From an uncultured Flavobacteriales bacterium (lineage in GTDB: Bacteria; Bacteroidota; Bacteroidia; Flavobacteriales_D; Sanyastnellaceae): DNA of 64,000 nt. A program made the translations under genes and the position numbers. Below are positions 36,278 through 56,547 of the stretch, piece after piece (position 1 is the stretch's first letter; each line of letters begins with the position of its first letter). The notes under the pieces were generated by a model, which saw only the letters and a program-made list of their open reading frames with translations, had not been told where the DNA came from and made no database searches. The stretch spans positions 1 to 64,000 of the forward strand of contig CALJFZ010000033.1 in NCBI GenBank assembly GCA_938074325.1, read 5' to 3'.

Positions 36278-38818
36278 ATGGAACAATTGAAATCCCACTT
36301 CCAACGGCACGCAATGCACTACATCGCGGTCGTCGTGTTCTACGCTTTGGCGGCGATTCTGCTCTCGAAATCCTTCGATGGATATGTCGTGCGGCAAGGG
36401 GACATTCAAAACTGGTTGGGCATGAGCAAGGAAGTTCAGGATGCGACGGTTTTGTTTGATGAGAAGCCCGCGTGGACCAATTCCATGTTCGGTGGAATGC
36501 CAGCGACCCACATCAAGGAGCAACACCCGGTGTTCGATGTGGCGGGGCATGTGAAACGTGCTTTCAACGCCTTGACCGGGTACAGTGGAATTACGGTATT
36601 CGTTTTGGCCATGCTGGGAGGGTACATCCTCGCATTGGCGTTGGGCGCTTCCCCGTGGGTAGCGCTTTTGTGCGGTGTGGGAATGGGACTCAGCACATTT
36701 GAAGTGCTCTATTATTCCGCGGGCCACAATTCCAAGGTCAACGCGGTAGCTTACATGCCATTCATTGTAGCCGGAGTAGTATGGGCCTACAGAGGCCGGC
36801 TGTTTTTGGGCAGTGCACTTGCGGCTTTAGCCACTGCCTTGCACGTGAGCTCGGGTCACCCCCAGATGACCTACTACCTCTTGTTTTTGTTGGTGGCAAT
36901 TGGCTTGGCAGAAACCTGGCGCATGGGCATCTCTGAGAAGAATTGGTCCAAGGCTTTGCGGGTCAATGGACTGATACTAGCGGCGGGTATTTTGGGTGTG
37001 CTTCCGCGGTATGCGCATTTGGCGGAAACCCAGGAATACGCCGAGTACACCATCCGCGGGGAACGGTTGTTGACCGACGGAGCTGAATCGGCCGAGGCCG
37101 GTCTCGACCGGGAATACATCTTGGAATACAGCATGGCTGCCGGTGAATGGTGGTCCATCATGTGCCCGGACATCAAAGGAGGCAACAACCCCTTGTACTG
37201 GGGTGAGCAAAAGTTTTCAGGCGGCGCCTTTTATTTCGGTGCCATCTTGGTGGCGCTGTTCTTCATGTTTTTGGTGGCCGGACGCGACAGGATGCGTTGG
37301 CCGTTGTTAGCGGTCACTGCTTTGGCCATTTTGCTGAGTCGGCGCGAAGTGGGCGGATTGATGGATTTTTTCCTGGAACACGTTCCTGCCTTCAACAAAT
37401 TTCGCGATACCAAAATGATGCTGGTCCTGGTTTTGTTGACGGTATCCATGGGGGCAGCCCTGGGACTCAAGGAATTGATCGCATCGTCAACTGCACCGGA
37501 CAATAAGCGACGCTGGTGGTGGATGGGAAGCGCCCTGGGTTTGGTGGCACTTTTTACAGGTTTCTACACCCTGCCTGAGGTCTTTTTCGATTTCCAATCC
37601 AACATCCGACAGGATGTGGCGGTCGAGCAATTGGGCTATGCGGAGGCGCTCAGTCGACGCTTGGAGGTCTTCCGGGCGGACGTGGTGCGCACGTTGGGTT
37701 TGCTCGTGGTGTTGGCAGGTGTGGTGGGCGCGTTGCTCTGGGGGAAACTCAAGCCTGTTCCCGCGCTCGCAGTGCTCCTCGTGGTGACGACCTTTGATTT
37801 GTGGAACGTTGACCAGCGGTACTTCAACCAAGAAAAGGTCAACGGGGTCTACCGGAACTGGGTGAAAAAAGTGGATCACGCTTTTCCATTCACGCCCGAG
37901 CCTCAGATGATGAAGTTGTTGGCGCAAGACTTTCCAGCCTCGCCTGAAAATGTGGAACGGGCGGAAAAACTGTATGCTTCTTACCTCGACCGGTTTGAGG
38001 ACATCCGCTTGACCCGTGCGGAGAAGGAACGCTTGCAGGCGGTGAGCCAATTTGGTGCCATGCGTTTTGCCTCTCCGTATCGAATTCTGCGGTGGGAAAA
38101 TCCGTTCAACGATTCATCGGCTTCGTACTTCTTCCAAAGCATTGGAGGTTATCACGCTGCGAAACTTCGTCGGTACCAGGACTTCATGGACCGGGTCCTT
38201 TTCCCGGAGCGTCAAAAGCTCATCGCAGGCCTACAATCGGGTGCTACCCAAGCAGCATTTGACGGCTTGGTGGGGCACAAAATGCTGAACACTCGGTACA
38301 TCCTTTTTGGACAGATGGCCGATCCCGTGGCCGTTCCGGGAGTTCCGGGCTATGCTTGGGTGGCCGACAGCTGGAATTGGGCAGAATCCGCTGATGACGA
38401 AATGGCGCAGACCGCTGCTTTGACGGCTCCGACGCAGGCGGTGGTTCACACAGAATTCAAAGGCCAATTGGACGGTGCTTCACCGGCGGCCTCAGGCTCC
38501 ATTGAACTGGTCAATTACAGCCCAGGTTACCTGGAATACCAGGCCAATCTCGATGAAGCGGGTTTGGGCATCTTCTCGGAAATCTGGTACCCGGAAGGAT
38601 GGATTGCTTACATCGATGGCGAACGCGTGGAAACTTTTAGAGCGAATTACGTGTTGAGGGCGATGAAGGTCCCTGCTGGAACGCATACGATTACGTGGGA
38701 GTTCATTCATGAACGATCCTCGGTGCTGGATGTGTTGTTCAATGTGTTGCTGCTGCTGTTTGTGGTTGGAACTGGCTGGTGGGGATTCAGAAAATCAGAA
38801 GCAGTTGAAACAACCTAA
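36278..38818 (+). CDS. yfhO: YfhO family membrane protein
   Basis: An 846-residue polytopic membrane protein: about twelve hydrophobic helices in the first 520 residues, then a soluble beta-rich extracytoplasmic domain and a final helix near residue 815. The FGGMPATHIKEQHP loop after the first helix and EVLYYSAGHNSKVNA are typical YfhO segments. In Gram-positives YfhO has been tied to glycosylation of lipoteichoic acid. In Bacteroidota it is a conserved putative glycosyltransferase-like protein of unknown substrate. The DUF4834 gene upstream may be a partner, which is inference from position. Confidence 0.88.
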   Translation: MEQLKSHFQRHAMHYIAVVVFYALAAILLSKSFDGYVVRQGDIQNWLGMSKEVQDATVLFDEKPAWTNSMFGGMPATHIKEQHPVFDVAGHVKRAFNALTGYSGITVFVLAMLGGYILALALGASPWVALLCGVGMGLSTFEVLYYSAGHNSKVNAVAYMPFIVAGVVWAYRGRLFLGSALAALATALHVSSGHPQMTYYLLFLLVAIGLAETWRMGISEKNWSKALRVNGLILAAGILGVLPRYAHLAETQEYAEYTIRGERLLTDGAESAEAGLDREYILEYSMAAGEWWSIMCPDIKGGNNPLYWGEQKFSGGAFYFGAILVALFFMFLVAGRDRMRWPLLAVTALAILLSRREVGGLMDFFLEHVPAFNKFRDTKMMLVLVLLTVSMGAALGLKELIASSTAPDNKRRWWWMGSALGLVALFTGFYTLPEVFFDFQSNIRQDVAVEQLGYAEALSRRLEVFRADVVRTLGLLVVLAGVVGALLWGKLKPVPALAVLLVVTTFDLWNVDQRYFNQEKVNGVYRNWVKKVDHAFPFTPEPQMMKLLAQDFPASPENVERAEKLYASYLDRFEDIRLTRAEKERLQAVSQFGAMRFASPYRILRWENPFNDSSASYFFQSIGGYHAAKLRRYQDFMDRVLFPERQKLIAGLQSGATQAAFDGLVGHKMLNTRYILFGQMADPVAVPGVPGYAWVADSWNWAESADDEMAQTAALTAPTQAVVHTEFKGQLDGASPAASGSIELVNYSPGYLEYQANLDEAGLGIFSEIWYPEGWIAYIDGERVETFRANYVLRAMKVPAGTHTITWEFIHERSSVLDVLFNVLLLLFVVGTGWWGFRKSEAVETT

Positions 38819-40058
38819 ACCGTCCGGACATCAGGTCACCGCATTATCCGATGGTGTTGATGCGCATTGGAGTTGGGGTGAGCCTGCAATCGAATCGATT
38901 GATTGGGATGCGTGGGACGCTTTGCTACACAGCTCAGGATCGGCTTCGGTGTTTCTCGAGAGCCGCATGGTTCAGGCGCTGCTTGCCGCGCCCGATCGGT
39001 ATATCGCCGCTCTGCAATGGTTTGAAGCAGACAGGCTGGTGGGGTTGGCTTGCGTAGAGGATACGTGCGCGGAGAGCATCAACCTCGACGGCCATTTGCA
39101 GTCTGAGCGTCCATGGTTTGGCTGGGTCAGCCGCCGGCTTCATGGCAAGGATGGCCGATTTCAATTCGGCGTACGGGTCGTAGGCACGGTTTTGGGAAGT
39201 GGCGAACACGGGCAATGTTGGTCGAAGGAGATTGCCGAGACGCGGGCGCATGCGCTGCTTTCGCAAGCCGTATTTCAGCCACTTAAGGTTAACGGTCAAC
39301 AGGTGCCCCGTGTGGTCATGGTAAAAGACCACCCGCTTCTGGACCAAGCGCCACGGAGGGTCCTTCATCCCGGATGGATTCCCCTTGAATTTGACCCAGA
39401 AATGATCTTTCACGTAAATCCAGATTGGAAGGATTTCGATGACTACATGGCGGATTTGAAGACCAAGTCCCGCACAAAGATCAAGCGAATCCTGACGTTG
39501 TCAGAAGGTTTTGTGTTGAGGGAGTGGACCTTGGATGATTTGCAGGAACGTGCGGAAGAGTTGATTGCGTTGTATCGCCGCGTGTATGAGCGCTCGGGAT
39601 TCCGTCTGGGCTCGCTTCACGCTGCTGAATTGGTGACTTCCAAGGAGCGCTGGGGAGAAGATTTTGTCGTGACCGGTTATGAATTGGACGGGGAACTTCG
39701 CGGATTTCAGTGCGCTTATGTCGGTCGGGAGGAAACTGAAGCATTCTTTGTGGGTTTCGACCCCGAATTGCTCAAATCCCACGCCATCTACCAGCGCATG
39801 CTCGTGGAATTCATTTGCCTAGGGGTTAGACGCAAGAGCACACGGGTCAACATGGGGCGCACCGCGTTGGAGATCAAGTCCTCAGTTGGGGCATTGCCGC
39901 GGCGATTACAATGTGAAGTGCGCTTCAGGAATCCCTTGTTCCACGCGGTGGTCAGCAGGTATGCACGCGGTTATACCCCCGTTGCTGCCAAGTTGCGACA
40001 GCCCTGGAAGGCCGATGCAAAAGCGTTGTCAGCCCACTCAGAAGTCCATTCCTTCTGA
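38805..40058 (+). CDS. GNAT-fold (FemAB-like) acyltransferase, hypothetical
   Basis: A 417-residue soluble protein. The C-terminal half (about 240-385) resembles the GNAT/FemAB fold: KTKSRTKIKRILTL, an EELIALYRRVYERSGF helix, GELRGFQCAYV and a final VNMGRTALEIKSSVGA segment like peptidoglycan-bridge or long-chain N-acyltransferases. Substrate unknown. The gene overlaps the end of yfhO; no ATG lies between the yfhO stop and the conserved region, so I take the TTG at 38805, which overlaps yfhO by 14 bases. Its 3' end overlaps the convergent TonB-receptor gene by 21 bases. Confidence 0.65.
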   Translation: MKQPKPSGHQVTALSDGVDAHWSWGEPAIESIDWDAWDALLHSSGSASVFLESRMVQALLAAPDRYIAALQWFEADRLVGLACVEDTCAESINLDGHLQSERPWFGWVSRRLHGKDGRFQFGVRVVGTVLGSGEHGQCWSKEIAETRAHALLSQAVFQPLKVNGQQVPRVVMVKDHPLLDQAPRRVLHPGWIPLEFDPEMIFHVNPDWKDFDDYMADLKTKSRTKIKRILTLSEGFVLREWTLDDLQERAEELIALYRRVYERSGFRLGSLHAAELVTSKERWGEDFVVTGYELDGELRGFQCAYVGREETEAFFVGFDPELLKSHAIYQRMLVEFICLGVRRKSTRVNMGRTALEIKSSVGALPRRLQCEVRFRNPLFHAVVSRYARGYTPVAAKLRQPWKADAKALSAHSEVHSF

Positions 40059-44956: not shown

Positions 44957-45376
44957 TCAACGGTTCTGGAGTCGGCGCACGTGGCGCATCCGGCTGATTG
45001 AGATGCGCAGTACATGGGACTCATTTCGCAACCGGTCAATGATCGCGGTTGAGAGTTCGTGCTGAGGCAGTGCGATGGAGCCTTCTGGCCACCCGTTCAG
45101 GTCGCCTCCTACGATCATGCACTTGAAGAAGTCGTGCACGTTGGATGCCTCTTTGGCAAGTGCTTGAACGCCGGCATTGGATTGCATCTCTTCGTCGACG
45201 ATGAGCCAAGCAGATTGGTGCTTGCCGTTTTCGTGCAAAAATTCGGACACGTTCAATTCAGTCGGGGAGAGCACACGGGCCTCGGCAAAATCACGGATGC
45301 GTGCTGCAAAGCTTTCGCTTTCGGCTCCATTGGAGAAGGCAATCCAGATGATGGGGGTTGAGTTAAACGGTGTCAT
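44957..45376 (-). CDS. Hypothetical protein beside the ThiF cluster
   Basis: A 139-residue soluble protein I do not recognise. It has alternating hydrophobic strands (PIIWIAFSN, SAWLIVDEEM, FFKCMIVGG) and amphipathic helices that give a receiver-like alpha/beta impression, but the receiver aspartate and lysine are not convincing. The frame is open further upstream, but the ATG at 45376 gives a sensible N terminus. The stop lies two bases from the convergent DUF4924 gene, as is common for real genes in this genome. It is divergent from the ThiF gene and might share control with it. Confidence 0.55.
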   Translation of the reverse strand: MTPFNSTPIIWIAFSNGAESESFAARIRDFAEARVLSPTELNVSEFLHENGKHQSAWLIVDEEMQSNAGVQALAKEASNVHDFFKCMIVGGDLNGWPEGSIALPQHELSTAIIDRLRNESHVLRISISRMRHVRRLQNR

Positions 45377-45517: not shown

Positions 45518-46597
45518 ATGGCATCCACTATTACATCCTACGAGACGCACCCGGTCGTTTTTCGACTGGAAGACCGTGCTGTGCGGCTGGCATGCCAAGC
45601 ATTGATGGAGGAGACCTCGGATGGGGCAACCATTGTGGATACGGTGGAGGAGCAATTGGTTGAGTGGTTGGTTACCCGTACCCCTGCCTTGCGCGCCCAG
45701 CCCGATGTGTTGGCCGATGAAATCAAGTCAGCAATCGGAGAGCAAGGATGGGATGGTTTCGGTTCGTGGGCTTGGTTCCCTTGGCGGCAGACCTGGGTGC
45801 GTTTGCTGCCGGAAGCGGCATTTGTATCCGTACGAACCAACCGCAACCGGAATAAGATTACGGAGGAAGAACAGGCCCTGCTCAAACAAAAGACCGTGGC
45901 AATCGCAGGGCTTTCAGTAGGGAGTTCACTGGCGATGACACTCGCCATGGAACGGACCTGTGGTCGATTGAAGTTGGCGGATTTTGATGTATTGGAATTG
46001 TCCAATTTGAACCGCATCCAGACCGGTGTGCACCATTTGGGTGTCCCCAAAGCAGTCGCCATTGCGCGGGCAATCACCGAAGTGGACCCTTATTTCGAGG
46101 TGGAATTGTACCGGGACGGGTTCACCACGGCCAATGCAGAAGACTTCATGGACGGCGTGGATTTGGTTTGCGATGCATGCGATCAGGTCCAAGCCAAAGC
46201 CAATCTCCGGTGGCACGCGCGGGCGAAGAACATTCCATTGATCATGGAAACATCGGACCGCGGCATGATTGATATTGAGCGGTACGACTTCCCCGAAACG
46301 CCCTACCTGCACGGCCGAATCTCCGATGCCCTGTTGCAGGAAATGCGGGAAGCATCCGGATGGAAGCCTGAATATTTTGATGCATTCATTGATGTGAGCC
46401 AAGCGTCTCCACGTGGAGTAGCCAGCTTACAAGAGGTAGGGAAGTCCTTGGTGGGTTGGCCGCAGCTCTACACCGATGTTGCAGGTGGAGGTGCGCACGC
46501 TGCACAAGTGATTCGAACAATTTTTCTCGGTGAGCCCGTTCAGGACGCTCGCCACTATCTGGAATGGAATGAGCAGCTCCTTGAATCCGTCAATTGA
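45518..46597 (+). CDS. ThiF/E1-like adenylyltransferase (Rv1355c type)
   Basis: A 359-residue protein with an N-terminal alpha/beta region (about 1-115, ending PWRQTWVRLLPEAAF) and a ThiF/MoeB/E1-like adenylation domain (about 115-300). The nucleotide loop GLSVGS is at 131-136. It is followed by LADFDVLELSNLNR at 153-166, with the conserved Asp pair and Arg, and by DACDQVQAK. There are no CxxC zinc pairs. The sequence pattern is that of the Rv1355c (annotated moeY) family. That family's second, nitroreductase-like half is missing here. E1-like enzymes adenylate a carboxyl end of a small protein or peptide; the substrate is unknown. The start may also be the ATG at 45467. It is first in a four-gene overlapping cluster. 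Confidence 0.82.
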   Translation: MASTITSYETHPVVFRLEDRAVRLACQALMEETSDGATIVDTVEEQLVEWLVTRTPALRAQPDVLADEIKSAIGEQGWDGFGSWAWFPWRQTWVRLLPEAAFVSVRTNRNRNKITEEEQALLKQKTVAIAGLSVGSSLAMTLAMERTCGRLKLADFDVLELSNLNRIQTGVHHLGVPKAVAIARAITEVDPYFEVELYRDGFTTANAEDFMDGVDLVCDACDQVQAKANLRWHARAKNIPLIMETSDRGMIDIERYDFPETPYLHGRISDALLQEMREASGWKPEYFDAFIDVSQASPRGVASLQEVGKSLVGWPQLYTDVAGGGAHAAQVIRTIFLGEPVQDARHYLEWNEQLLESVN

Positions 46598-47330
46598 TCG
46601 GGCCCGACAGGCAGAACGCATTGCGCTGGCTGAAGTGCACGTGTTCCGTGCGGACCAGCACGCGGACATCTGCCATGAATTGGTGGACGGCCACCAGGCG
46701 GTGCTCCAGGCGTACGGCATCAAGAAGTTGACGACGTTCAACCGGGACTGGATCGGAAATCCCAACGTAATCGTTATTGCGGCGATCGGAAAAGGATCAG
46801 GCGTGGACGGACGCACCCGCCGGGTGCTTGGTGGCGCGCGCATGCACGGTGCCCAAGCCGTCAATGAGTTGCCTTTGATGAAGGCCATCGGTGACCAAGA
46901 TCCTCAACTGGAGGAACACATGGCTACGTACGTGGAAGAGGGGGCTTACGAATTAGGTGGCATGTGGAATAGCATTGAAATGGCTGGCATGGGAGTCGAA
47001 GCGACGTTCATGATCCAAGCGGCCATGGCGACCCTCACCATGGTCGGTGGCAGGCACCTCTTTGCCCTCACTTCACCGGTTACGCGGCGCATGCAAAAGC
47101 CGCTCGCTTTTTTCACCGAGGAAGGCATCGGAGATGGAGGGTATTTCACTTATCCCACGCCGAAGTTGCGTGCAACCATCGCACGCTACACATTCCCTGA
47201 ACATTTGACCGATGTGTTGCCCGAGGTCCGAGCACTGCTCGAAGGCATTTGGCAAGATCCCGAAGGCATGGTGCACCACGTGCACGGCCCCAAGGGGGAG
47301 TTGGCCTTGAATTTTAGACTGGAAGTCTGA
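46569..47330 (+). CDS. GNAT-fold acyltransferase-like protein (autoinducer-synthase-like layout)
   Basis: A 253-residue soluble protein. The secondary-structure order and a few motifs resemble GNAT/N-acyl-amino-acid synthase/LuxI-type folds. These are an early EVHVFRADQHADICHEL strand-helix, VIVIAAIG...RRVLGGARMH as paired strands, GAYELGGMWNSIEMAGMGV as a core strand, and LFALTSPVTRRMQKPLAF as the late helix-strand. I recall uncharacterised Bacteroidota proteins with the same ELxGxWNS motif. No fold search was possible. It overlaps the ThiF gene by 29 bases, and its stop overlaps the sensor kinase ATG by one base, so the genes are translationally linked. A small-molecule product is inference. 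Confidence 0.6.
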   Translation: MSSSLNPSIDRARQAERIALAEVHVFRADQHADICHELVDGHQAVLQAYGIKKLTTFNRDWIGNPNVIVIAAIGKGSGVDGRTRRVLGGARMHGAQAVNELPLMKAIGDQDPQLEEHMATYVEEGAYELGGMWNSIEMAGMGVEATFMIQAAMATLTMVGGRHLFALTSPVTRRMQKPLAFFTEEGIGDGGYFTYPTPKLRATIARYTFPEHLTDVLPEVRALLEGIWQDPEGMVHHVHGPKGELALNFRLEV

Positions 47331-49468
47331 TGCAGGTTGCCGGACGAAAACATCGGCACCGGCTGTGGTGGATTGCGGTTTTCTTGGCCGCGGCATCTGC
47401 GCTTTCGGCTCAATCTATGATTGGGAAGCGTTTGGAGGTTTTGACCGATACGCTCACGGCGGATCTCATGGGCCTTCCGGCGGTCGTTGCGAGTACGGCT
47501 TGGGAGCCAGCTGAGCAAGTTGTTCCAAGTTTGGGATTGACCGATGAGGTCAGTTGGGTGCGCTTGCGGATTGATCCCCGGAGCGAAAATGGGCAGTTGA
47601 TCGAAATCCAAAACGCCGGCATCGATGAGCTCACGGGCTACATGGTTTGTGACGGAAAGGTGATCGCAACCTATGAGCGAGGTGCTTTGCAAACAGGGCC
47701 GTTTGATGCGACGTTCGGAACCTACCCGACCTTCCCGGTCCCGCTGGTTGAATGCGACGAATTGCATGCGGTTTTCCGGCTGAAATCTTCCAAACCGTTG
47801 TTGTTGCCCGTGCGAATTGCGGGGCCTCGTCAGGTGCTCAACGACGCGCATCAGCGCGACATCCTGTTTGCCGCTTACTTCGGCGTCATCTTGGTCATGC
47901 TCCTCTACAACCTGTTTCTGTTCTTCAGTGTAGGGGACCGGAGCTATCTGGAGTATTCCTTGTTCATTTTCATGATCGGTGGAACGCAGTTTGTCTTGAA
48001 CGGTTACGCGCCGTATTTCAATGTCAACGATTGGCCGTGGTTGAATGAGCGCATTACCCATTTGTTTGGTGTGCTCAGTGGACTCACGACCATCGTTTTC
48101 GCCCAGAACTTCCTGCGCTTGAGCCGGTACGTTCCTTGGTTACACAAGCTGTTGAATGGGTATTTTTTGGTGTATCTAGTCGCCTTGGTATTGACCTTGG
48201 CGGGCCAATTGACGTGGGCGTACAACGTCATCAATTTCTGCGCTGCTGCTATATTCTTCTTTATTCCTGGAGCGGTCATTACGATGCGCAAAGGGTACAG
48301 TCCGGCCAAGTACTTTTTGCTAGCCTTCTCGATTTTCATCGTTGCGGTGATCGTTTTTGTGATGAAGGATGCCGGAGTGATACCCTATAACCAATGGACG
48401 TTTTTCGCCTTGCCGCTCGGCAGTGCGATTGAGATGGTGCTGTTGAGTTTGGCATTGGCCAGCCGCATCAACCAATTGAAAAAGGAAAGCGCGCATGCCC
48501 GTGAGGAACAGTTGCGGATTTCCCAATTGAATGAACGGATTGTGCGCGAACAAAACACCAAGCTGGAAGAACGTGTTCGGGACCGCACGGCGGATTTGGA
48601 ACAAGTCAATGCGAGCATGCGTTCGACCTTGGATGAGCTTCAATCCGCCCAGCAGCAACTGGTCCAGTCTGAGAAGTTGGCCTCCATCGGTCAATTGACG
48701 GCGGGCATTGCCCATGAGCTGAATAACCCCATCAATTTTGTCGCTTCCAGTGCGCAATCGTTGCGGCGGGACTTCGAGGACCTCAACGAGATCATCGGCA
48801 TGGTAAAGGCCATGGACGCCTCGGACGATGCACTGGAAAATCAAGTTACCGCTATAAAGGAGAAGCTATCCCAGCTCGACATTGATTTCACGCAGCAAGA
48901 AATTGACGAGCTCCTCAATGGCATTGAAGACGGAACCAACCGTACCTCGGAAATCGTCAAAGGACTCCGAATCTTCAGCCGCATGGACGGAGATAATTTC
49001 ATTCAGGCCCAGTTGAACGAGCTCATTGAATCGACCCTGATTGTCCTGCGCAGCACCATCAAGGACCGCGCGGTGGTGGACCTTCAATTGGGGGATGATG
49101 TGCCCCCTGTGATGTGTCAGCCGGGTCGATTGAATCAGGTTTTCATGAACACCATCACCAACGCAGTTCAAGCCATGGACGGGCTGGACCGCGAAGTGGA
49201 GGAGAATTGCGTTTCCATCCGGACCGCTCGGGTCGAAAGCATCGGGCAGGATTGGGCCGAAGTGCGCATCAAGGACACAGGTGCGGGCATGTCCGATGCT
49301 GTAAAATCTCAAATTTTTGACCCGTTCTTCACCACCAAGCCCGTGGGTGAAGGCACCGGGCTCGGGTTGAGCATTGTGATGGGGATTCTAAGCGATCACA
49401 ATGCCGAAGTGGAGGTGGAATCAGAAGAAGGCACGGGCACTGAATTCATTATCCGATTTCCATTATGA
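47330..49468 (+). CDS. 7TM-DISM sensor histidine kinase
   Basis: A 712-residue membrane kinase. It has a signal peptide (to about 28), a 7TMR-DISMED2-type periplasmic beta domain (about 40-165), seven transmembrane helices (about 180-385), a coiled coil (about 385-440), then a histidine kinase core: H-box GIAHELNNPINFV near residue 460, N-box NTITNAVQAM, G1 DTGAGM and G2 GEGTGLGLS. The extracellular DISMED2 fold is carbohydrate-binding-like and is thought to bind small ligands. All catalytic boxes are intact. Its ATG overlaps the stop of the GNAT-like gene, and the response regulator starts inside its stop codon. Confidence 0.93.
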   Translation: MQVAGRKHRHRLWWIAVFLAAASALSAQSMIGKRLEVLTDTLTADLMGLPAVVASTAWEPAEQVVPSLGLTDEVSWVRLRIDPRSENGQLIEIQNAGIDELTGYMVCDGKVIATYERGALQTGPFDATFGTYPTFPVPLVECDELHAVFRLKSSKPLLLPVRIAGPRQVLNDAHQRDILFAAYFGVILVMLLYNLFLFFSVGDRSYLEYSLFIFMIGGTQFVLNGYAPYFNVNDWPWLNERITHLFGVLSGLTTIVFAQNFLRLSRYVPWLHKLLNGYFLVYLVALVLTLAGQLTWAYNVINFCAAAIFFFIPGAVITMRKGYSPAKYFLLAFSIFIVAVIVFVMKDAGVIPYNQWTFFALPLGSAIEMVLLSLALASRINQLKKESAHAREEQLRISQLNERIVREQNTKLEERVRDRTADLEQVNASMRSTLDELQSAQQQLVQSEKLASIGQLTAGIAHELNNPINFVASSAQSLRRDFEDLNEIIGMVKAMDASDDALENQVTAIKEKLSQLDIDFTQQEIDELLNGIEDGTNRTSEIVKGLRIFSRMDGDNFIQAQLNELIESTLIVLRSTIKDRAVVDLQLGDDVPPVMCQPGRLNQVFMNTITNAVQAMDGLDREVEENCVSIRTARVESIGQDWAEVRIKDTGAGMSDAVKSQIFDPFFTTKPVGEGTGLGLSIVMGILSDHNAEVEVESEEGTGTEFIIRFPL

Positions 49469-50001
49469 TCAACGTACTCTACCTCGATGACGAGGCCCAC
49501 AATTTGACGGCCTTTCGAGCAGCTTTCCGCCGCGATTTCCAGGTGCACGTCACCACGGAACCCACCGATGCGGTACGCATTTTGCGCGAGCATCCGATTG
49601 AAGTGATCATTTCGGATCAGAAGATGCCCAAGCTCAGTGGGGTGGAGTTTTTCGAGTTGATCGCGCCTGATTATCCGGATCCGGTGCGCATGCTGTTGAC
49701 CGGTCATGCCGACATCGACGCTGTCATCGACGCCATCAACAAAGGGCAGATTTACAAGTACATCGCGAAGCCGTGGAACGAGTCCGAGTTGCGCGATTTG
49801 GTCAAGGAGGCATCCGCTCTGTATCACGACCGACAGGCCATCGTTTTGCGCGGAGAGGATTTGCAGCAGCGAATGAGCAAGGCGGAGCAGGAGGCTGTGA
49901 AGATTCAAGCACTGACCTCAAGCCAAACAGCCCTTACGGCCGATGAGACCGCCCGGGTGTTTGAATTAGCCAACGCCATCCAACGCTTGCTGCAGGCGTA
50001 G
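49465..50001 (+). CDS. Response regulator receiver protein without output domain
   Basis: A 178-residue protein with a receiver domain at about 1-120: acidic pair Asp8-Asp9, phospho-acceptor Asp51 in ISDQKMP, threonine in LLTGH, and lysine in AKPWNE. This is the RpfG-like receiver type. The C terminus is only a coiled coil of about 60 residues; there is no DNA-binding, HD-GYP or GGDEF domain. It probably relays the signal to another protein or feeds back on a partner. The ATGA overlap with the kinase makes it the cognate partner. It converges with the M42 peptidase gene with a three-base gap. Confidence 0.92.
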   Translation: MINVLYLDDEAHNLTAFRAAFRRDFQVHVTTEPTDAVRILREHPIEVIISDQKMPKLSGVEFFELIAPDYPDPVRMLLTGHADIDAVIDAINKGQIYKYIAKPWNESELRDLVKEASALYHDRQAIVLRGEDLQQRMSKAEQEAVKIQALTSSQTALTADETARVFELANAIQRLLQA

Positions 50002-50004
50002 CGT

Positions 50005-51093
50005 TTATCGGATGTACTTGAAGTCCTCCCCGGGCTGAATGTTCTTCAGCGTGGCGATGATCAACTTGATGCAATTTTCGACGTCGTCGCGGTGCACCAT
50101 TTCAACGGTGGTGTGCATGTAGCGGAGCGGCAGGCTGATCAGCGCACTAGCCACCCCTTTGTTGGAGTAGGCGAATGCGTCGGTATCGGTGCCGGTGAAA
50201 CGGCTGGCCGCCATGCGCTGCAGCGGAATTTTTTCTGCGTCGGCTGTATCGATGATGCGCTGCAACAAGTTGTTCTGGACAGCGGGTCCATAGGTTACAC
50301 CGGGTCCCTTGCCCGCCGCGACATCGCCGTTGTCGATCTTGTTCATCATCGGGGTGTGCGTGCAGTGCGTTACATCAGTGACAATCGCTACATCTGGGTT
50401 GATGCGTTCGGCAATCATCTGCGCTCCGCGCAGGCCAATTTCTTCTTGAACGGAATTGGTGATGTACAGACCAAACGGAAGCTTGGTGCCTTCCTCGTGG
50501 AGGAGGCGAGCGACTTCAGCGATCATGAATCCTCCGGCGCGGTTGTCCAGCGCACGGGCAACGTACCAGTCCTTGTTTAGGACCATAAACGTGTCTTCAT
50601 AGGTCACCACGCATCCGACGTGAATGCCCATTTTTTCGACCTCTTTTTTGTCTTTGGCTCCAACGTCCAAGAAGATGTTCTTCATGGTCGGTGCTTCCTC
50701 CTTACCAGCAGTGCGGGTATGGATGGCGGGCCAGCCGAAGACGCCCTTTACAATTCCTTTTGGCGTGTGGATATCGACCCGCTTGGAAGGGGCGATTTGG
50801 TGGTCACTGCCGCCGTTTCGACGCAGGTAGATGTAGCCGTCGGCCGTGATGTAATGCACGAAGTAGCTGATTTCATCGGCATGCGCTTCGATGACGACTT
50901 TGTAGGGAGCATCGGGGTTTACCACGCCGACAACGGTGCCGTAGGTGTCGACGATGTGCTCGTCGATATACGGGCGGATGTAGTCCAACCAAAGCTGCTG
51001 TCCGCTGCTTTCAAATCCCGTTGGGCTTGGGTTATTGAGGTAGGCTTCTAAAAATTTCTCAGAAGCTTTGTTGAGGATCGATTTCTTTGCCAT
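50005..51093 (-). CDS. M42 family metallo-aminopeptidase
   Basis: A 362-residue cytosolic peptidase of the M42 (PepA/FrvX/TET) family, which forms dodecameric shells that trim peptides. Metal and catalytic residues are visible in EAHADEISY, ALDNRAGG, SVQEEIGLRGAQ, VTDVTHCTH and the late MHTTVEMVHRDD histidine. I start at MAKKSILNK (51093) rather than ten codons upstream. It stands alone on the minus strand, with the terminator of the beta-oxidation operon just upstream. Confidence 0.93.
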   Translation of the reverse strand: MAKKSILNKASEKFLEAYLNNPSPTGFESSGQQLWLDYIRPYIDEHIVDTYGTVVGVVNPDAPYKVVIEAHADEISYFVHYITADGYIYLRRNGGSDHQIAPSKRVDIHTPKGIVKGVFGWPAIHTRTAGKEEAPTMKNIFLDVGAKDKKEVEKMGIHVGCVVTYEDTFMVLNKDWYVARALDNRAGGFMIAEVARLLHEEGTKLPFGLYITNSVQEEIGLRGAQMIAERINPDVAIVTDVTHCTHTPMMNKIDNGDVAAGKGPGVTYGPAVQNNLLQRIIDTADAEKIPLQRMAASRFTGTDTDAFAYSNKGVASALISLPLRYMHTTVEMVHRDDVENCIKLIIATLKNIQPGEDFKYIR

Positions 51094-51097
51094 TCCA

Positions 51098-51141
51098 CAA
51101 AAATACCGGCCGACACAGCGCAAATTGCTGATGCCGGCCGG
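51098..51141 (-). terminator. Terminator of the beta-oxidation operon
   Basis: Outer arms CCGGCCG (51106-51112) and CGGCCGG (51135-51141), with an inner CAGC/GCTG stem (51116-51119 with 51127-51130), make a long hairpin. On the minus strand it is followed by TATTTTTG. It lies 33 bases after the acyl-CoA dehydrogenase stop. Confidence 0.8.
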
Positions 51142-51173
51142 ATTGATTTCAACAAAGATTTCACCCTTTCAGG

Positions 51174-52964
51174 TCAGAGGGTGTAAGCGTTTTTTTCAAT
51201 TACGTGCATCGCAATCAATTGCCGTGCCGCCTTGGTGTTCAGGTCTTCGGTTTTGCAGAAGCGTTTCATGCCCATGAGCATCATCTTCAACTCATCGCCT
51301 TCGGCGAATCCGAGCAGGGCTTCTTTACCAGCGCTGTGAATCCACTCGCTGGCTTCATAGGTGTAGACATTCATGATGGCCATCTGCACCTCGAGGTCGT
51401 TCGTGCCTCCTTTTTGCTGGGCCAACTTTTGCACGCGCAACACGGTGGACTCTATGGTGTATGTCCAAATGGCCATGTCGGCGATGTTCATGAGGATTTC
51501 CTGCTCCTTGGCGAGGCTCATCATCAATTTTTGGACCGCCGCACCGGCGACGAGCAGAATGGCTTTTTTGAGGTTGGCCACATAGCCCAATTGCCGTTCG
51601 AAGGGGTCGCTTGACGGTGAAGCAAAGTCCGGCACCCCAGTCAATTCATTGGCCACGGCCATCGCTGGCGTCATGAGATCCATTTCTCCCTTCATGGCCT
51701 TCTTGAGGATCATGTCGACGGTCAACATGCGGTTGATCTCATTCGTGCCTTCGAAGATTCGATTGATCCGTGCGTCTCGGTAGGCCAACTCCGCGCGCGT
51801 CTCCGCGCTGTAGCCCATGCCGCCGTGGATTTGAACGGCTTCGTCCACACAGTAGTCGAGCACCTCTGAGCCCAGCACTTTCATCATGGCGCATTCCGGA
51901 GCGAAATCGGCGATGCCTTTCAACGTTGCATCGCCGTGGTCCATGCCGCCTGCTTTCAGCGCTGCGATGGCGTCGTCGATGTTTTGCGTCGCTCGGTAAA
52001 CTGCGGACTCGCAGGTATACAGCCGGATGGCACTCTCGGCGATTTTGTATCGGATGGCGCCATACTTCGAAATGGGCCGTCCAAACTGCTCGCGTTCGTT
52101 GGCATATTGCGTGGCATAGCTGCAGGCATCTTTTGCAGCACCCAGTACCGCTCCGCCCAACTTGATTCGACCGATGTTCAAAATATTCACGGCAATCTTG
52201 AAGCCTTGCTGGCGCTCGTATAGCAAGTTTTCGACTGGAACGTGGACATCGTTGAAGAATATTTGTCGCGTCGACGATCCTTTGATGCCGAGCTTCTTTT
52301 CTTCCGGGTTTTTTGTGATGCCCTCGCTGTGTCCATCCACGATGAATGCGGTGAGTTTTTCGTCGTCATCGATCTTGGCAAACACAATCATCACATCGGC
52401 GAATCCCCCGTTGGTGATCCACATTTTCTGGCCGTTGACGATGTAATGCTTGCCGTCGTCTGAGAGCTTGGCCTTCGTCTTGCCGCTGTTGGCATCCGAT
52501 CCTGCACTGGGCTCTGTCAGGCAGTAACAACCCTTGAGTTCACCGGAAGCAAGCCCCGGGATCCACCTCTGTTTCTGTTCTTCGTTGCCGTAATACAGAA
52601 TGGGCAGCATGCCAATCCCCGTATGGGCACTGAAGCTCACACTGAAGGAGTGAGCCCCGCCGATGGCTTCCGTGATGAGCATGGTGGTTTTGAAGTCCAA
52701 CCCCATGCCGCCGTATTCTTCAGGTACGGAGCTCCCGAGCAGGCCGAGTTCCCCGGTTTCTTCCATGAGCTTCGGCGTCAATCCTTCTTCTTGGGCCTCG
52801 ATGCGATCGAGGTTGGGAATGATGCGTTGGTTGACAAAATCCAACGTCATCTCCTTCATCATGATTTGCTCCTCCGTCCATTCTTCTGGGATGAAGATGT
52901 CGGCTGCTGCAGTGGGGCGGATGAGGAATTCGCCGCCGCGGATGGCTGTGTTGTTTTCAGGCAT
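51174..52964 (-). CDS. Acyl-CoA dehydrogenase
   Basis: A 596-residue FAD enzyme that introduces the trans-2 double bond in the first step of beta-oxidation. Typical motifs are CYCLTEPSAGSDANS near residue 155 (FAD/substrate), WITNGGFAD, and the catalytic glutamate region RIFEGTNEINR near residue 415. A C-terminal extension of about 160 helical residues, as in VLCAD-like long-chain enzymes, accounts for the length above the usual 380. It is last in a unit marR, hydratase/dehydrogenase, thiolase, dehydrogenase. Electrons would pass to ETF, which is not in the window. Confidence 0.94.
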   Translation of the reverse strand: MPENNTAIRGGEFLIRPTAAADIFIPEEWTEEQIMMKEMTLDFVNQRIIPNLDRIEAQEEGLTPKLMEETGELGLLGSSVPEEYGGMGLDFKTTMLITEAIGGAHSFSVSFSAHTGIGMLPILYYGNEEQKQRWIPGLASGELKGCYCLTEPSAGSDANSGKTKAKLSDDGKHYIVNGQKMWITNGGFADVMIVFAKIDDDEKLTAFIVDGHSEGITKNPEEKKLGIKGSSTRQIFFNDVHVPVENLLYERQQGFKIAVNILNIGRIKLGGAVLGAAKDACSYATQYANEREQFGRPISKYGAIRYKIAESAIRLYTCESAVYRATQNIDDAIAALKAGGMDHGDATLKGIADFAPECAMMKVLGSEVLDYCVDEAVQIHGGMGYSAETRAELAYRDARINRIFEGTNEINRMLTVDMILKKAMKGEMDLMTPAMAVANELTGVPDFASPSSDPFERQLGYVANLKKAILLVAGAAVQKLMMSLAKEQEILMNIADMAIWTYTIESTVLRVQKLAQQKGGTNDLEVQMAIMNVYTYEASEWIHSAGKEALLGFAEGDELKMMLMGMKRFCKTEDLNTKAARQLIAMHVIEKNAYTL

Positions 52965-52975
52965 CGTTCAATTCA

Positions 52976-54157
52976 TTAAGCGTTCAACATTTCAAAGACG
53001 CCGGCGGCCCCTTGGCCTGTTCCGACGCACATGGTCACCATCCCGTAACGGGCTTGGCGAGTCTGCAATTCGTGCATGAGTTGCACGGTCAATTTTGATC
53101 CGGTGCATCCCAGCGGGTGCCCCAGTGCGATGGCGCCGCCATTGGGGTTCACCAGCGAGGGGTCCAAACCGAGTTCCTTGACCACCGCGACCGATTGGGA
53201 GGCGAAGGCCTCGTTGAGTTCGACGGCACCTAGATCTTGGGCAGTGACACCTGCTTTCTTCAGCGCTTCGGGCACCGCGTGTATAGGGCCGACGCCCATG
53301 ATGCGCGGCTCCAAACCGCTCACGTGGTAACTGGCCAGTCGCGCGATGGGTTCCACGTTCAATTCTTTGAGCATGCGCTCGGATACGACGAGTACAAAGG
53401 CAGCTCCATCGGACGTCTGCGAGCTGTTCCCAGCTGTGACGGTCCCGCCTTGGGCGAATACCGGCTTGAGGCGTGCCAGCCCTTCCGGAGAAGAATCACG
53501 CCGAACGCCTTCGTCGGTATCGACCACGTGGGTGCGTTCTTGGCGCTTTTCTTGGGCATCGAGGTAGACCTCGTTGACTGTGATGGGGGCAATGCCCGGG
53601 GCGAATTTGCCGGCGTCAATCGCGGCTGCAGCGCGCTGGTGGCTCTGCAGGGCGAAGGCGTCTTGGTCTTCACGTGAGACGCCAAAATCTTTCGCGACGG
53701 CTTCAGCCGTGAGGCCCATTCCCCAATACCAATCGGGGTTGTTTTTCGCTACCCGGGCGTTGGGGACAATGCGCCAACCGCCGAAAGGAATGGGAGACAT
53801 GGTTTCGATGCCTCCGGCCAAAATGCAATCGGCGATGCCGGCATGGATCTTGGCCGAAGCTATGGCGATGGTTTCCAATCCCGATGCGCAGTACCGATTG
53901 ACGGTCATACCGGGCACTTTTTCCGTATCCAATCCCATCAAGCTAACCATGCGGCCGATGTTCAGTCCTTGCTCTGCTTCCGGCGTGGCGTTACCGACAA
54001 TGACGTCGTCGATGCGTTCGCGATCAAGCTGCGGGAAATCTGAGAGCAGTTTGCGAATGACTTGCTCGCCCAAATCATCGGGCCGAACAAAACGAAAAGC
54101 GCCTTTGCCGGATTTGCCTACCGGCGAACGGTATCCTCCTATGATGTATGCGTTCAT
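52976..54157 (-). CDS. fadA: Acetyl-CoA acyltransferase (thiolase)
   Basis: A 393-residue thiolase that cleaves 3-ketoacyl-CoA with CoA, the last step of beta-oxidation. The nucleophilic cysteine is in NRYCASGLETI near residue 88; the C-terminal motifs are LGHPLGCTGS (His) and MCVGTGQG (second Cys). The start MNAYIIGGYRSPVG gives the canonical N terminus; a longer frame upstream overlaps the preceding gene. Five bases separate it from the hydratase/dehydrogenase gene and eleven from the acyl-CoA dehydrogenase. A degradative thiolase is favoured by context. Confidence 0.94.
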   Translation of the reverse strand: MNAYIIGGYRSPVGKSGKGAFRFVRPDDLGEQVIRKLLSDFPQLDRERIDDVIVGNATPEAEQGLNIGRMVSLMGLDTEKVPGMTVNRYCASGLETIAIASAKIHAGIADCILAGGIETMSPIPFGGWRIVPNARVAKNNPDWYWGMGLTAEAVAKDFGVSREDQDAFALQSHQRAAAAIDAGKFAPGIAPITVNEVYLDAQEKRQERTHVVDTDEGVRRDSSPEGLARLKPVFAQGGTVTAGNSSQTSDGAAFVLVVSERMLKELNVEPIARLASYHVSGLEPRIMGVGPIHAVPEALKKAGVTAQDLGAVELNEAFASQSVAVVKELGLDPSLVNPNGGAIALGHPLGCTGSKLTVQLMHELQTRQARYGMVTMCVGTGQGAAGVFEMLNA

Positions 54158-54162
54158 GGCGA

Positions 54163-56547
54163 TTAGTTTCTTAAGATTTTTCCTTTCTGAATGAGGCTCT
54201 GCATGCGTTCCAGGGACTTTCGTTGCATGCACAGAGAGACGAAGGCCTCCCGTTCCAAATCGAGCAAATACTGCTCGGAGACGGTGGTGCGTTCGCTGAG
54301 GTCTCCTCCGCACATCACATATCCCAGCTTTTCACTGATGAGTCGGTCGTGTTCGGAGATGTAGTTGCCGCTCATCATGCTGTGCGCGCCGACATATACG
54401 ATGCCAAGCCCTTCTTGGCCGGCCACGGTGATGTCCTTCCGCTGCAGCGGTTGCGTGTATCCGGCTTCCGACAGCTCGATAGCTGCGCGCTTGGCACGTG
54501 CGAGTTGGTCGCGGCGGTTGACCACGACTTCGTCAATGCCTTCCCGTAAGTAGCCGAGTTCAAATGCCTCATATGCAGACGTTGCCACTTTGGCCTGTCC
54601 AATGGTGAGGAACCGGTCGCGCAATCGGTTAATGCGCATATCGCCTTCGTGCATTTCGTCGTTCAAACGCAGCACGAATTCCTTTGTGCCACCGCCACCT
54701 GGAATGAGTCCGACGCCGAACTCCACCAGGCCTATATAGGTCTCAGCATGAGCGACGACTTTGTCGGCATGAAGGCACATTTCACAACCGCCACCTAGGG
54801 CGAGTTGGTGAGGGGCGACAATGACTGGAATACCAGAGTAGCGCAGCCGCATGACGGTGTTCTGGAACATCCGAATGGCGTGATTCAACTCGTCGTATTC
54901 CTGTTCAACGGCCATCATGAAGATCATGCCCACGTTGGCACCGGCGCTGAACTGCGCGCCTTCATTGGAGATAACTACGCCGCGCCATTGGTCTCCACTT
55001 TCGGCCAAATCGATGGCCTTGTTGAGTCCTTCGAGCACCTCGGCGCCGATGGAATTCATCTTCGTGTGGAACGCGACATTCAGAATGCCATCGCCTAAAT
55101 CCTGGATGGTTGTGCCCGAATTGGACCACACCTTGGCGGATTCCGGAAGCCAAGCCAAGGACAGTCGTCCCTCTTGACCACCCACGGCTTCGTAGCTGTT
55201 TGATTGCGGATTCCAGCATTCACGTACGCCATCGATGTTGCGGTAGAACGTGCCTTCGCCTTTTGATTCGAAGTCCTCAATCCAAGACGGCAAGCTCAGC
55301 CCGCGGTCGGCAATGGCCTTCAAGCCTGCCTCGAAACCGATGGCATCCCAACTTTCAAACGCGCCCAATTCCCAACCAAAACCTGCGCGCAACGCATCGT
55401 CGATTCGGTAGGGTTCGTCCGCGATTTCCGGAACCCGGTTCGCTACATAAGCGAAAACATCTGCGAAGATGCGCCGGTAGAAGGTGCCGGCTTCGTCCTG
55501 GCCGTTGAAGAGTAACTTGGTCCTTTGCTCGAGGTTGTCCACGGCTTTGGCCATGTCCAGGGTGGCGAACTTGGCTTTGACCTTGGGGCGGTACTCCAGC
55601 GTTTTCAAGTCCAAGGCGAGGATTTCACTTTTGCCTTGAGCGTCCTTGACTTTCTTGTAAAATCCTGCACCGCTTTTGGAGCCCAAGAGGTTGTTGTCGA
55701 CGAGGTGCTGAACAAACGCCGGGGTTTGAAACACTTCGGCACGTTCATCGTCTGGGCAGTTCTCCGCCACACCATTGGCCACATGGACCAGTGTGTCGAG
55801 GCCCACGACATCGCACGTGCGGAAGGTGGCACTCTTCGGCCGGCCCATCGCGGGTCCAGTGAGCTTATCCACGGCTTCCACCGTCAATCCCATTTCGCTC
55901 ACGGTGTGAAAGAGGGCTTGAATGGCGAAGACGCCCACGCGATTGGCAATGAAAGCCGGAGTGTCCTTGCACATTACCACTTGCTTTCCCAAAATGCGTT
56001 CACCGTATCCCTCGAGGAAAGTCAGGACTTCGGGCTTGGTTTTGGGACCGGGAATGATTTCCAATAGCGGCAGGTACCGCGGTGGGTTGAAAAAGTGGGT
56101 GCCGCAGAAATGGGCCTGAAAGTCTTCGGAGCGCCCTTCGCTCAACTGGGCCAATGGAATCCCTGAGGTGTTGCTCGTTATAAGGGTACCGGGCTTGCGG
56201 TGTGCCTCTACCCGTTCGAACAATTGTTGCTTGATGTCCAGCCGTTCTACGACGACTTCAATGATCCAATCGCATGAGCCCAATTGGGCCATATCATCGT
56301 CGAAATTTCCCGTGGCGATGCGTTTGGCAAATCGCTTCGAATAGAGCGGTGAAGGGTTGGACTTGATGGCCGCCTTTAAGTGACCGTCCGCAATGGAATT
56401 CCGTGGGCCTTCATCCGATGGTAGGTCCAAGAGCAAAACTTCGGAACCGGTCTGCGCTAAGTGGCAGGCGATGCGCGATCCCATCACGCCTGAGCCGAGA
56501 ACGGCGACGCGTTTGATGCGATGAAAAGGAATGGGGTGGGTACTCAT
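54163..56547 (-). CDS. Fused 3-hydroxyacyl-CoA dehydrogenase / enoyl-CoA hydratase
   Basis: A 794-residue bifunctional beta-oxidation enzyme. The dehydrogenase is N-terminal, with the NAD-binding motif VLGSGVMGSRIA at about residue 15 and the substrate domain to about 400. The crotonase-fold hydratase is C-terminal (about 490-700), with NEGAQFSAGANVGM and GLIPGGGGTKEF. This order is the reverse of E. coli FadB/FadJ, so those symbols are not applied. The catalytic glutamates of the hydratase lie within the C-terminal segment. Its ATG overlaps the MarR stop (ATGA), and it is followed by thiolase five bases later. Confidence 0.93.
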   Translation of the reverse strand: MSTHPIPFHRIKRVAVLGSGVMGSRIACHLAQTGSEVLLLDLPSDEGPRNSIADGHLKAAIKSNPSPLYSKRFAKRIATGNFDDDMAQLGSCDWIIEVVVERLDIKQQLFERVEAHRKPGTLITSNTSGIPLAQLSEGRSEDFQAHFCGTHFFNPPRYLPLLEIIPGPKTKPEVLTFLEGYGERILGKQVVMCKDTPAFIANRVGVFAIQALFHTVSEMGLTVEAVDKLTGPAMGRPKSATFRTCDVVGLDTLVHVANGVAENCPDDERAEVFQTPAFVQHLVDNNLLGSKSGAGFYKKVKDAQGKSEILALDLKTLEYRPKVKAKFATLDMAKAVDNLEQRTKLLFNGQDEAGTFYRRIFADVFAYVANRVPEIADEPYRIDDALRAGFGWELGAFESWDAIGFEAGLKAIADRGLSLPSWIEDFESKGEGTFYRNIDGVRECWNPQSNSYEAVGGQEGRLSLAWLPESAKVWSNSGTTIQDLGDGILNVAFHTKMNSIGAEVLEGLNKAIDLAESGDQWRGVVISNEGAQFSAGANVGMIFMMAVEQEYDELNHAIRMFQNTVMRLRYSGIPVIVAPHQLALGGGCEMCLHADKVVAHAETYIGLVEFGVGLIPGGGGTKEFVLRLNDEMHEGDMRINRLRDRFLTIGQAKVATSAYEAFELGYLREGIDEVVVNRRDQLARAKRAAIELSEAGYTQPLQRKDITVAGQEGLGIVYVGAHSMMSGNYISEHDRLISEKLGYVMCGGDLSERTTVSEQYLLDLEREAFVSLCMQRKSLERMQSLIQKGKILRN

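Follow-up and report, generated by a model that had tools for sequence, protein, structure and literature searches.

A putative acyl-oxazolone-type enzyme pair coupled to a 7TMR-DISM sensor kinase: a candidate small-molecule signalling module in Bacteroidota

Why should the genes of a putative amino-acid-modifying enzyme pair overlap with those of a sensor kinase and a receiver, and could the kinase perceive what the pair makes? The question is raised by four genes on the forward strand (positions 45518-50001) of a 64,000-nucleotide stretch of DNA from an uncultured Flavobacteriales bacterium, hereafter the window, which is part of a 2.15 Mb, 59-contig genome assembly (G000) that is 88% complete. 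They encode an E1/ThiF-like protein (E1), a GNAT-like acyltransferase, a 7TMR-DISM histidine kinase and a receiver, and their frames and consecutive overlaps of 29, 1 and 4 bases reproduce the co-directional cassette described in the initial annotation, which was made from the sequence alone. The gene order, the domains, the conserved catalytic residues, the predicted acyltransferase fold and the coupling of the four genes are results of the analysis. That they form a self-contained small-molecule signalling module of Bacteroidota, in which the product of the enzyme pair is sensed by the kinase, is a proposal whose chances we consider evenly balanced.

The coupling was examined in a survey of the Rv1355c family, to which E1 belongs. 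At a threshold of E ≤ 1e-55, the family was found in 10 of 395 genomes across the phylum (two of them of the window's family), in 92 of 249 genomes of the order and in none of 14 control genomes. Gene surroundings were compared for 65 E1 copies, taken from the order (56 of its 92 positive genomes, of which one has two copies) and from 8 further genomes of the phylum survey; 20 of these copies, like that of the window, had originally been located by way of the acyltransferase and were counted apart, which left 44 copies chosen by E1 alone. Room, defined as at least 5 kb downstream, was available for 33 of the 44 and for 19 of the other 21 (52 in all). Among the 33 E1-chosen copies, which represent seven family groups, the acyltransferase lay beside E1 in every case, the 7TM-DISM kinase was present in 32 and a same-strand receiver in 31 (at L089 the receiver is on the other strand only), and all three were present in each of the 19 copies found through the acyltransferase. 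Rare adjacency of the homologues, which the initial annotation had named as an argument against its own proposal, is clearly not the case, and the recurrence of the cassette in different genera and families makes the grouping more than a chance one. One genome (G548) carries two E1 copies (L065 and L066), one of them cut by a contig end.

The coupling also survives replacement of the flanking genes and rearrangement of the cassette itself. In 22 loci outside the window's family, E1 was matched in 22, the acyltransferase in 21, the kinase in 19 and the receiver in 20, where several of the missing matches fall at contig ends and the kinase query can match other kinases. The genes flanking the cassette in the window, namely those for DUF1853, OmpH, an M42 peptidase, an acyl-CoA dehydrogenase, a thiolase and a 3-hydroxyacyl-CoA dehydrogenase, were found in none of these 22 loci, and that for DUF4924 in one. 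In four loci (L060, L061, L062 and L064) the acyltransferase precedes E1 and the set is retained. Further conserved neighbours in 30 compared loci were mostly opposite-strand shadow frames of the four core genes and flanks shared within the window's family, with no nameable extra gene outside that family. A literature search, in which most subscription journals were not covered, returned no report in which such an enzyme pair is linked with a histidine kinase. Their conserved coupling is the new point of the present analysis.

Table 1. Positions of the cassette genes and of the divergent upstream gene in the window
Feature	Position	Strand	Length	Basis
Candidate pseudo-receiver, divergent from E1	44957..45376	-		predicted model, weak Foldseek matches
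E1/ThiF-like adenylyltransferase, Rv1355c/TrzS cyclase half, without flavin-dependent oxidase half	45518..46597	+	359 aa	NF005901, PF00899
Amino-acid N-acyltransferase-like protein (predicted FeeM/acyl-homoserine-lactone-synthase GNAT fold), TrzA/OxzA position	46569..47330	+	253 aa	AlphaFold2 model, Foldseek, hhalign
Sensor histidine kinase: extracytoplasmic 7TMR-DISMED2, seven-transmembrane 7TMR-DISM, HisKA and HATPase_c	47330..49468	+	712 aa	Pfam, catalytic boxes
Receiver without output domain	49465..50001	+	178 aa	PF00072, phospho-acceptor set

What the pair might make is suggested first by E1, which matches the NCBIfam family NF005901 ('Rv1355c family protein') with an E-value of 8e-108 and 361.6 bits over profile positions 7-339 of 722; the second-best NCBIfam family is a ThiF (E 4e-24), and PF00899 is matched at E 3e-23. 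The score lies below the curated cut-off of 476 bits because the N-terminal half alone is present, and E1 is, judged by its sequence, the N-terminal ThiF-like (cyclase) half of a two-domain protein of the Rv1355c/TrzS type, in line with the type assigned to it initially. Its matches in the PDB are TcdA, MoeB, UBA5 and ThiF. In 44 aligned relatives, which are 44 of the 68 available rows with the window included, the residues G131, S133, G135, D155, D157, N163, N165, R166, K178, C221, D222 and K227 are invariant, and D222 aligns with residue 130 of MoeB (1jw9), which we take to be the ATP/Mg aspartate. The corresponding kind of residue in TrzS may be D217, which was picked by comparison with Escherichia coli ThiF and is required for cyclisation (PMC12856293).

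The other half of such proteins, a flavin-dependent oxidase, is fused to E1 in 20 of the 65 copies, and full-length proteins in the operons of relatives reach 644 (L043), 723 (L051) and 783 bits (L046) over the whole 722-position profile, all above the cut-off. When the oxidase half of L046 was used as query, a match was obtained in one of 15 genomes and in none of the window's genome, five congeners and the f14 and f15 genomes, and a profile search of the window's genome returned for the oxidase region one 61-residue stretch of 21 bits, too weak to count. Since the assembly is incomplete, the absence of the oxidase half from this genome is likely rather than certain. On the E1 tree the oxidase half is present in 16 of 64 rows, a distribution that needs at least three changes (bootstrap 2-3). 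A recent loss in the window's lineage was considered and dropped, as the tree rather gives an older, weakly supported split.

The second enzyme is recognizable only through an alignment-based model. As a single sequence it has no Pfam or NCBIfam match at E ≤ 1, and the best E-value of a PDB sequence search is just 0.71. Its AlphaFold2 model (mean predicted local distance difference test score, pLDDT, 91.4; predicted template modelling score, pTM, 0.87) is placed by Foldseek closest to the acyl-homoserine lactone (AHL) synthase BjaI (5w8a, E 2.1e-7) and to FeeM (2g0b_D, E 2.6e-7, target TM 0.75), with further AHL synthases and ordinary GNATs lower in the list. A re-examination of the Foldseek list with VIA-align gave Z 16.5 for FeeM and Z 16.0 for LasI; ordinary GNATs reach Z 15.5, and the fold alone therefore leaves the substrate unfixed. 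The likeness to N-acyl-amino-acid and homoserine-lactone synthases that had been proposed from the layout of the protein is thus found again in the predicted fold, for which the lack of an acyltransferase fold had been named as the contrary outcome. The alignment behind the model comprises 61 relatives, with three further near-identical rows omitted, and shows no variation at H42, L46, W61, G89, P102, E128 and W133. A Pfam scan of the 61 members detected Acetyltransf_1 in nine (best E 2e-6) and FeeM (PF21926) in one (E 0.017), and no autoinducer-synthase family at E ≤ 0.1. The resemblance to LuxI-type synthases (BjaI, LasI and RpaI) would accordingly lie in the predicted fold only, at 11-15% sequence identity, and the protein differs from them further in having an E1 partner, which LuxI systems are not known to have. 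The acyltransferases of the nearest named relatives, metagenome-assembled genomes mostly labelled Flavobacteriales, are 77-90% identical to that of the window.

A further relationship was obtained by profile comparison. With hhalign, the 61 relatives matched a 260-aa 'hypothetical protein' encoded next to an Rv1355c-family gene on a Rhodococcus plasmid (probability 92.3, E 5.7e-7, 184 columns), whereas the other two of three compared proteins adjoining Rv1355c-family genes gave probabilities of 0.5 and 0.4; on this profile evidence, the GNAT-like protein is homologous to the Rhodococcus protein. The window thus appears to encode two of the parts that mark acyl-oxazolone synthesis systems, an Rv1355c-type ThiF-like cyclase with its adenylation residues and an adjacent amino-acid N-acyltransferase of FeeM-like fold, whose activity is predicted; the third part, a fused or co-encoded flavin-dependent oxidase, is missing from the window and present in the 20 relatives mentioned above.

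The TrzA/TrzS pairs of mycobacteria and Rhodococcus synthesize N-acyl oxazolones: TrzA N-acylates tryptophan, and TrzS cyclises the product with ATP and then desaturates it with O2, the ThiF half performing the cyclisation that precedes desaturation (PMC12856293). The window's pair shares with TrzAS (Rv1356c/Rv1355c in Mycobacterium tuberculosis, with relatives in M. smegmatis and Rhodococcus; N-acyl tryptazolones) the NCBIfam family of E1, a homologous acyltransferase and, in its relatives, the ThiF-oxidase fusion, but differs in that its E1 lacks the oxidase half and that genes for a 7TM-DISM kinase and a receiver accompany the pair. OxzAB of Pseudoalteromonas rubra and TyzACB of M. tuberculosis likewise combine an acyltransferase with a ThiF cyclase, and FeeM (2G0B) and BjaI (5W8C), named as the nearest structures of TyzA, are also among those nearest to the window's protein (accessible part of PMC10404671); unlike the window's pair, both systems have their own oxidase, fused or separate, and the accessible parts of the two papers describe no kinase (PMC10404671, PMC12856293). 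A third comparison is offered by the N-acyl tyrosine clusters of Stieleria, Thalassotalea and Massilia, where genes for ThiF and a nitroreductase lie near that for an N-acyl amino acid synthase, but in which the nitroreductase is a separate gene and, in the accessible text, no sensor kinase is mentioned (PMC12479983). The neighbours described for TrzAS are genes of cyclic di-GMP (c-di-GMP) turnover, and the word 'kinase' does not occur in that paper (PMC12856293). The M. tuberculosis pair also adjoins c-di-GMP genes according to its accessible part, and on two Rhodococcus plasmids (L105 and L106) an Rv1355c-family gene, an unannotated acyltransferase-like gene and a GGDEF-domain gene lie side by side, so that signalling genes adjoin the enzyme pair in both phyla. 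Two Streptomyces plasmids (L103, 7188-10102, and L104, 7923-9721) encode ThiF products 45-47% identical to the Bacteroidota E1 half; the L103 gene overlaps a ketoacyl-ACP synthase III gene and the L104 gene a GNAT gene, with no oxidase annotated beside them, and the L104 GNAT has no detectable relation to the window's GNAT-like family.

The kinase has the Pfam domains 7TMR-DISMED2, 7TMR-DISM_7TM, HisKA and HATPase_c, with H462 and the N, G1, F and G2 boxes all present, and the receiver matches PF00072 (E 1.4e-19) as its sole significant domain with the phospho-acceptor set D8/D9, D51, T79 and K102, as had been read from the sequence at the start for both proteins. By domain content, kinase and receiver form a two-component system with a 7TMR-DISM sensor. 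At E ≤ 1e-5 the window's genome yields no PF07695 (7TMR-DISM) match other than this kinase, and its neighbourhood is therefore not one of many such kinases. The receiver is more variable among relatives: of the 52 copies with room, 27 have a receiver-kinase hybrid where the window has a lone receiver, and 26 have more than one receiver; an opposite-strand receiver lies within 3.5 kb upstream in 28 of the 57 copies with that much room. The hybrid, the oxidase half fused to E1 in some relatives and the gene divergent from E1 go beyond what the initial annotation described. In four loci (L084, L086, L087 and L088; families f3 and f9) a PAS-bearing receiver follows the kinase, and another type of kinase takes the place of HisKA (HisKA_3 in L086 and L087); the Pfam scan took in L086, L087 and L088 (the last as receiver and PAS only), and L084 was judged by length alone.

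Taken together, these relationships make it most likely, by homology, that the enzyme pair produces an N-acyl amino acid together with the corresponding oxazolone. E1 would adenylate the carboxylate of the N-acyl amino acid, which would let cyclisation to the oxazolone (azlactone) proceed; in lineages with the fused oxidase the ring compound would subsequently be desaturated, and in the window's lineage, where desaturation seems to be missing, the product may be a saturated oxazolone or the N-acyl amino acid formed by its hydrolysis. The extracytoplasmic DISMED2/7TM part of the kinase may then bind this product or a close derivative, as the conserved linkage and a modest covariation suggest, and the domains point to phosphotransfer between the kinase and the receiver encoded with it. 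Having no output domain, this receiver would act through contact with other proteins or pass the signal on to partners encoded elsewhere. Of the initial statement that the first two proteins make or modify a diffusible or lipid-like compound, homology supports the synthetic part, along the oxazolone route of TrzA/TrzS (OxzA/OxzB) minus the oxidase; a quorum-sensing-type loop stays at the level of a hypothesis.

Covariation was analyzed in 55 operons, obtained from 64 by thinning at 85% E1 identity. With E1, kinase core and 7TM regressed out, the extracytoplasmic domain correlates with the acyltransferase at a partial r of 0.30 for maximum-likelihood (ML) distances and 0.23 for p-distances (0 of 1000 permutations each, the permutations ignoring phylogeny), and with its own kinase core at -0.10 and -0.05, respectively. 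The partial correlation between E1 and the sensor domain differs by method (0.203 ML, -0.014 p-distance). Kimura distances gave 0.256 for acyltransferase and sensor and 0.085 for E1 and sensor, but were undefined for some values of the extracytoplasmic domain, hence the use of ML and p-distances; simple correlations, inflated by relatedness, are highest for acyltransferase and sensor (0.896).

Strict coupling to one kinase type makes product sensing the best single explanation of these data, and several other explanations have to be weighed against it. The main one, which we hold to be a serious though lesser possibility, is regulated production: the kinase would sense another cue, such as membrane stress, a carbohydrate, light or oxygen, and the relay would control the synthesis or use of the N-acyl amino acid or oxazolone as a lipid of the membrane or of stress, or as an antimicrobial. 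Carbohydrate binding is ascribed to 7TMR-DISMED2 domains, which counts for such a cue, and the receiver has no DNA-binding domain and thus no apparent link to transcription of the operon. The TrzAS study treats oxazolones chiefly as lipids linked to stress and reports that tryptazolones are mostly retained in cells, which also favours production in response to something else (PMC12856293). Yet the extracytoplasmic domain covaries with the acyltransferase and not with its own kinase core, and the same sensor type in 32 of 33 E1-chosen copies is more specificity than a general stress regulator needs. It appears improbable that the pair instead modifies a protein or peptide, or makes some other amide, with E1 activating a carboxylate for conjugation and the kinase reading the modified partner. 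Relatives of ThiF, MoeB and E1 do activate protein C-termini, and the PDB matches of E1 include MoeB, UBA5 and ThiF; however, 30 loci, compared for frames of at least 90 aa, show no gene for a conserved peptide or ubiquitin-like protein alongside the cassette. E1 is far closer to the small-molecule cyclase family than to any protein-activating one (8e-108, the next family having 4e-24), and the closest structures to the acyltransferase are small-molecule N-acyltransferases. That the genes stand together merely through conserved chromosome order among relatives is very improbable and already contradicted: the flanks are conserved in the window's genus and partly in its family, but outside the family they vanish while the four core genes persist, even where the order is swapped, and the family labels f1, f9 and f19 occur on both sides of the E1 tree, whose deepest split is weakly supported, so that the unit was evidently inherited or moved together.

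Product sensing has several observations to contend with. The window's E1 lacks the oxidase by which oxazolones are completed in the systems studied so far, and none was found in the 88%-complete genome; saturated cyclised intermediates were undetected in Rhodococcus strains making TrzAS products (PMC12856293). No exporter is conserved in the cassette among the 30 compared loci. One locus (L082, 6196-10210), the sole clear exception to the coupling, has the E1-acyltransferase pair with no kinase within 9 kb, where DinB-like and then methyltransferase (RlmL-like) genes follow, and on the actinobacterial plasmids, whose gene tables are incomplete and one record of which is unannotated, no kinase is annotated directly beside the pair; the enzyme-kinase link may therefore be specific to Bacteroidota. 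Covariation is also seen between acyltransferase and kinase core (partial r 0.32 ML, 0.17 p-distance), and it is therefore not purely an effect of the ligand domain; because the permutations ignore the tree, we regard its support for product sensing as a hint.

A narrower form of product sensing is put forward tentatively, as somewhat short of an even prospect: in Bacteroidota, the 7TM-DISM histidine kinase inherited together with the TrzA/TrzS-like pair would have as its dedicated ligand the reactive azlactone, or the corresponding N-acyl amino acid, made by that pair. The physiological role of N-acyl oxazolones has been called a major unresolved question, with signalling mentioned as possible, in the accessible text of PMC12856293. 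Should the narrower form hold, this would be the first receptor assigned to the oxazolone lipid class and would assign a ligand class to 7TMR-DISM sensors, and two chemical versions would exist, one desaturated in lineages with the fused oxidase and one saturated and short-lived in those without it. The near-exceptionless tie of the enzyme pair to one sensor type provides a named candidate receptor in marine bacteria, and could reveal the purpose of these fatty amino-acid ring compounds.

Promoter- and terminator-like sites showed no excess over shuffled expectation. The gene divergent from E1 is conserved in the window's genus (11 rows) and has no Pfam match; the model of its product (pLDDT 89.3) has the strand-helix order of a receiver without alpha4, and Foldseek matches are weak and mixed (CpaE 4dn6, E 3.6e-4, then RssB and KaiA among flavodoxin-like and unrelated Rossmann-like folds). 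In other loci a true receiver gene often occupies this upstream divergent place, and a profile comparison of the product with those receivers gave a weak match (probability 9.5); a pseudo-receiver is plausible on the predicted model. Right after the cassette, on the reverse strand (50005-56547), lie the M42 peptidase gene and then those for acyl-CoA dehydrogenase, thiolase and 3-hydroxyacyl-CoA dehydrogenase, which suggest a possible acyl-CoA link, although they are conserved beside the cassette only near the window's lineage. A second GNAT-type gene (Acetyltransf_6) is located at 38709-40058 on the forward strand, approximately 5.5 kb upstream of the cassette.

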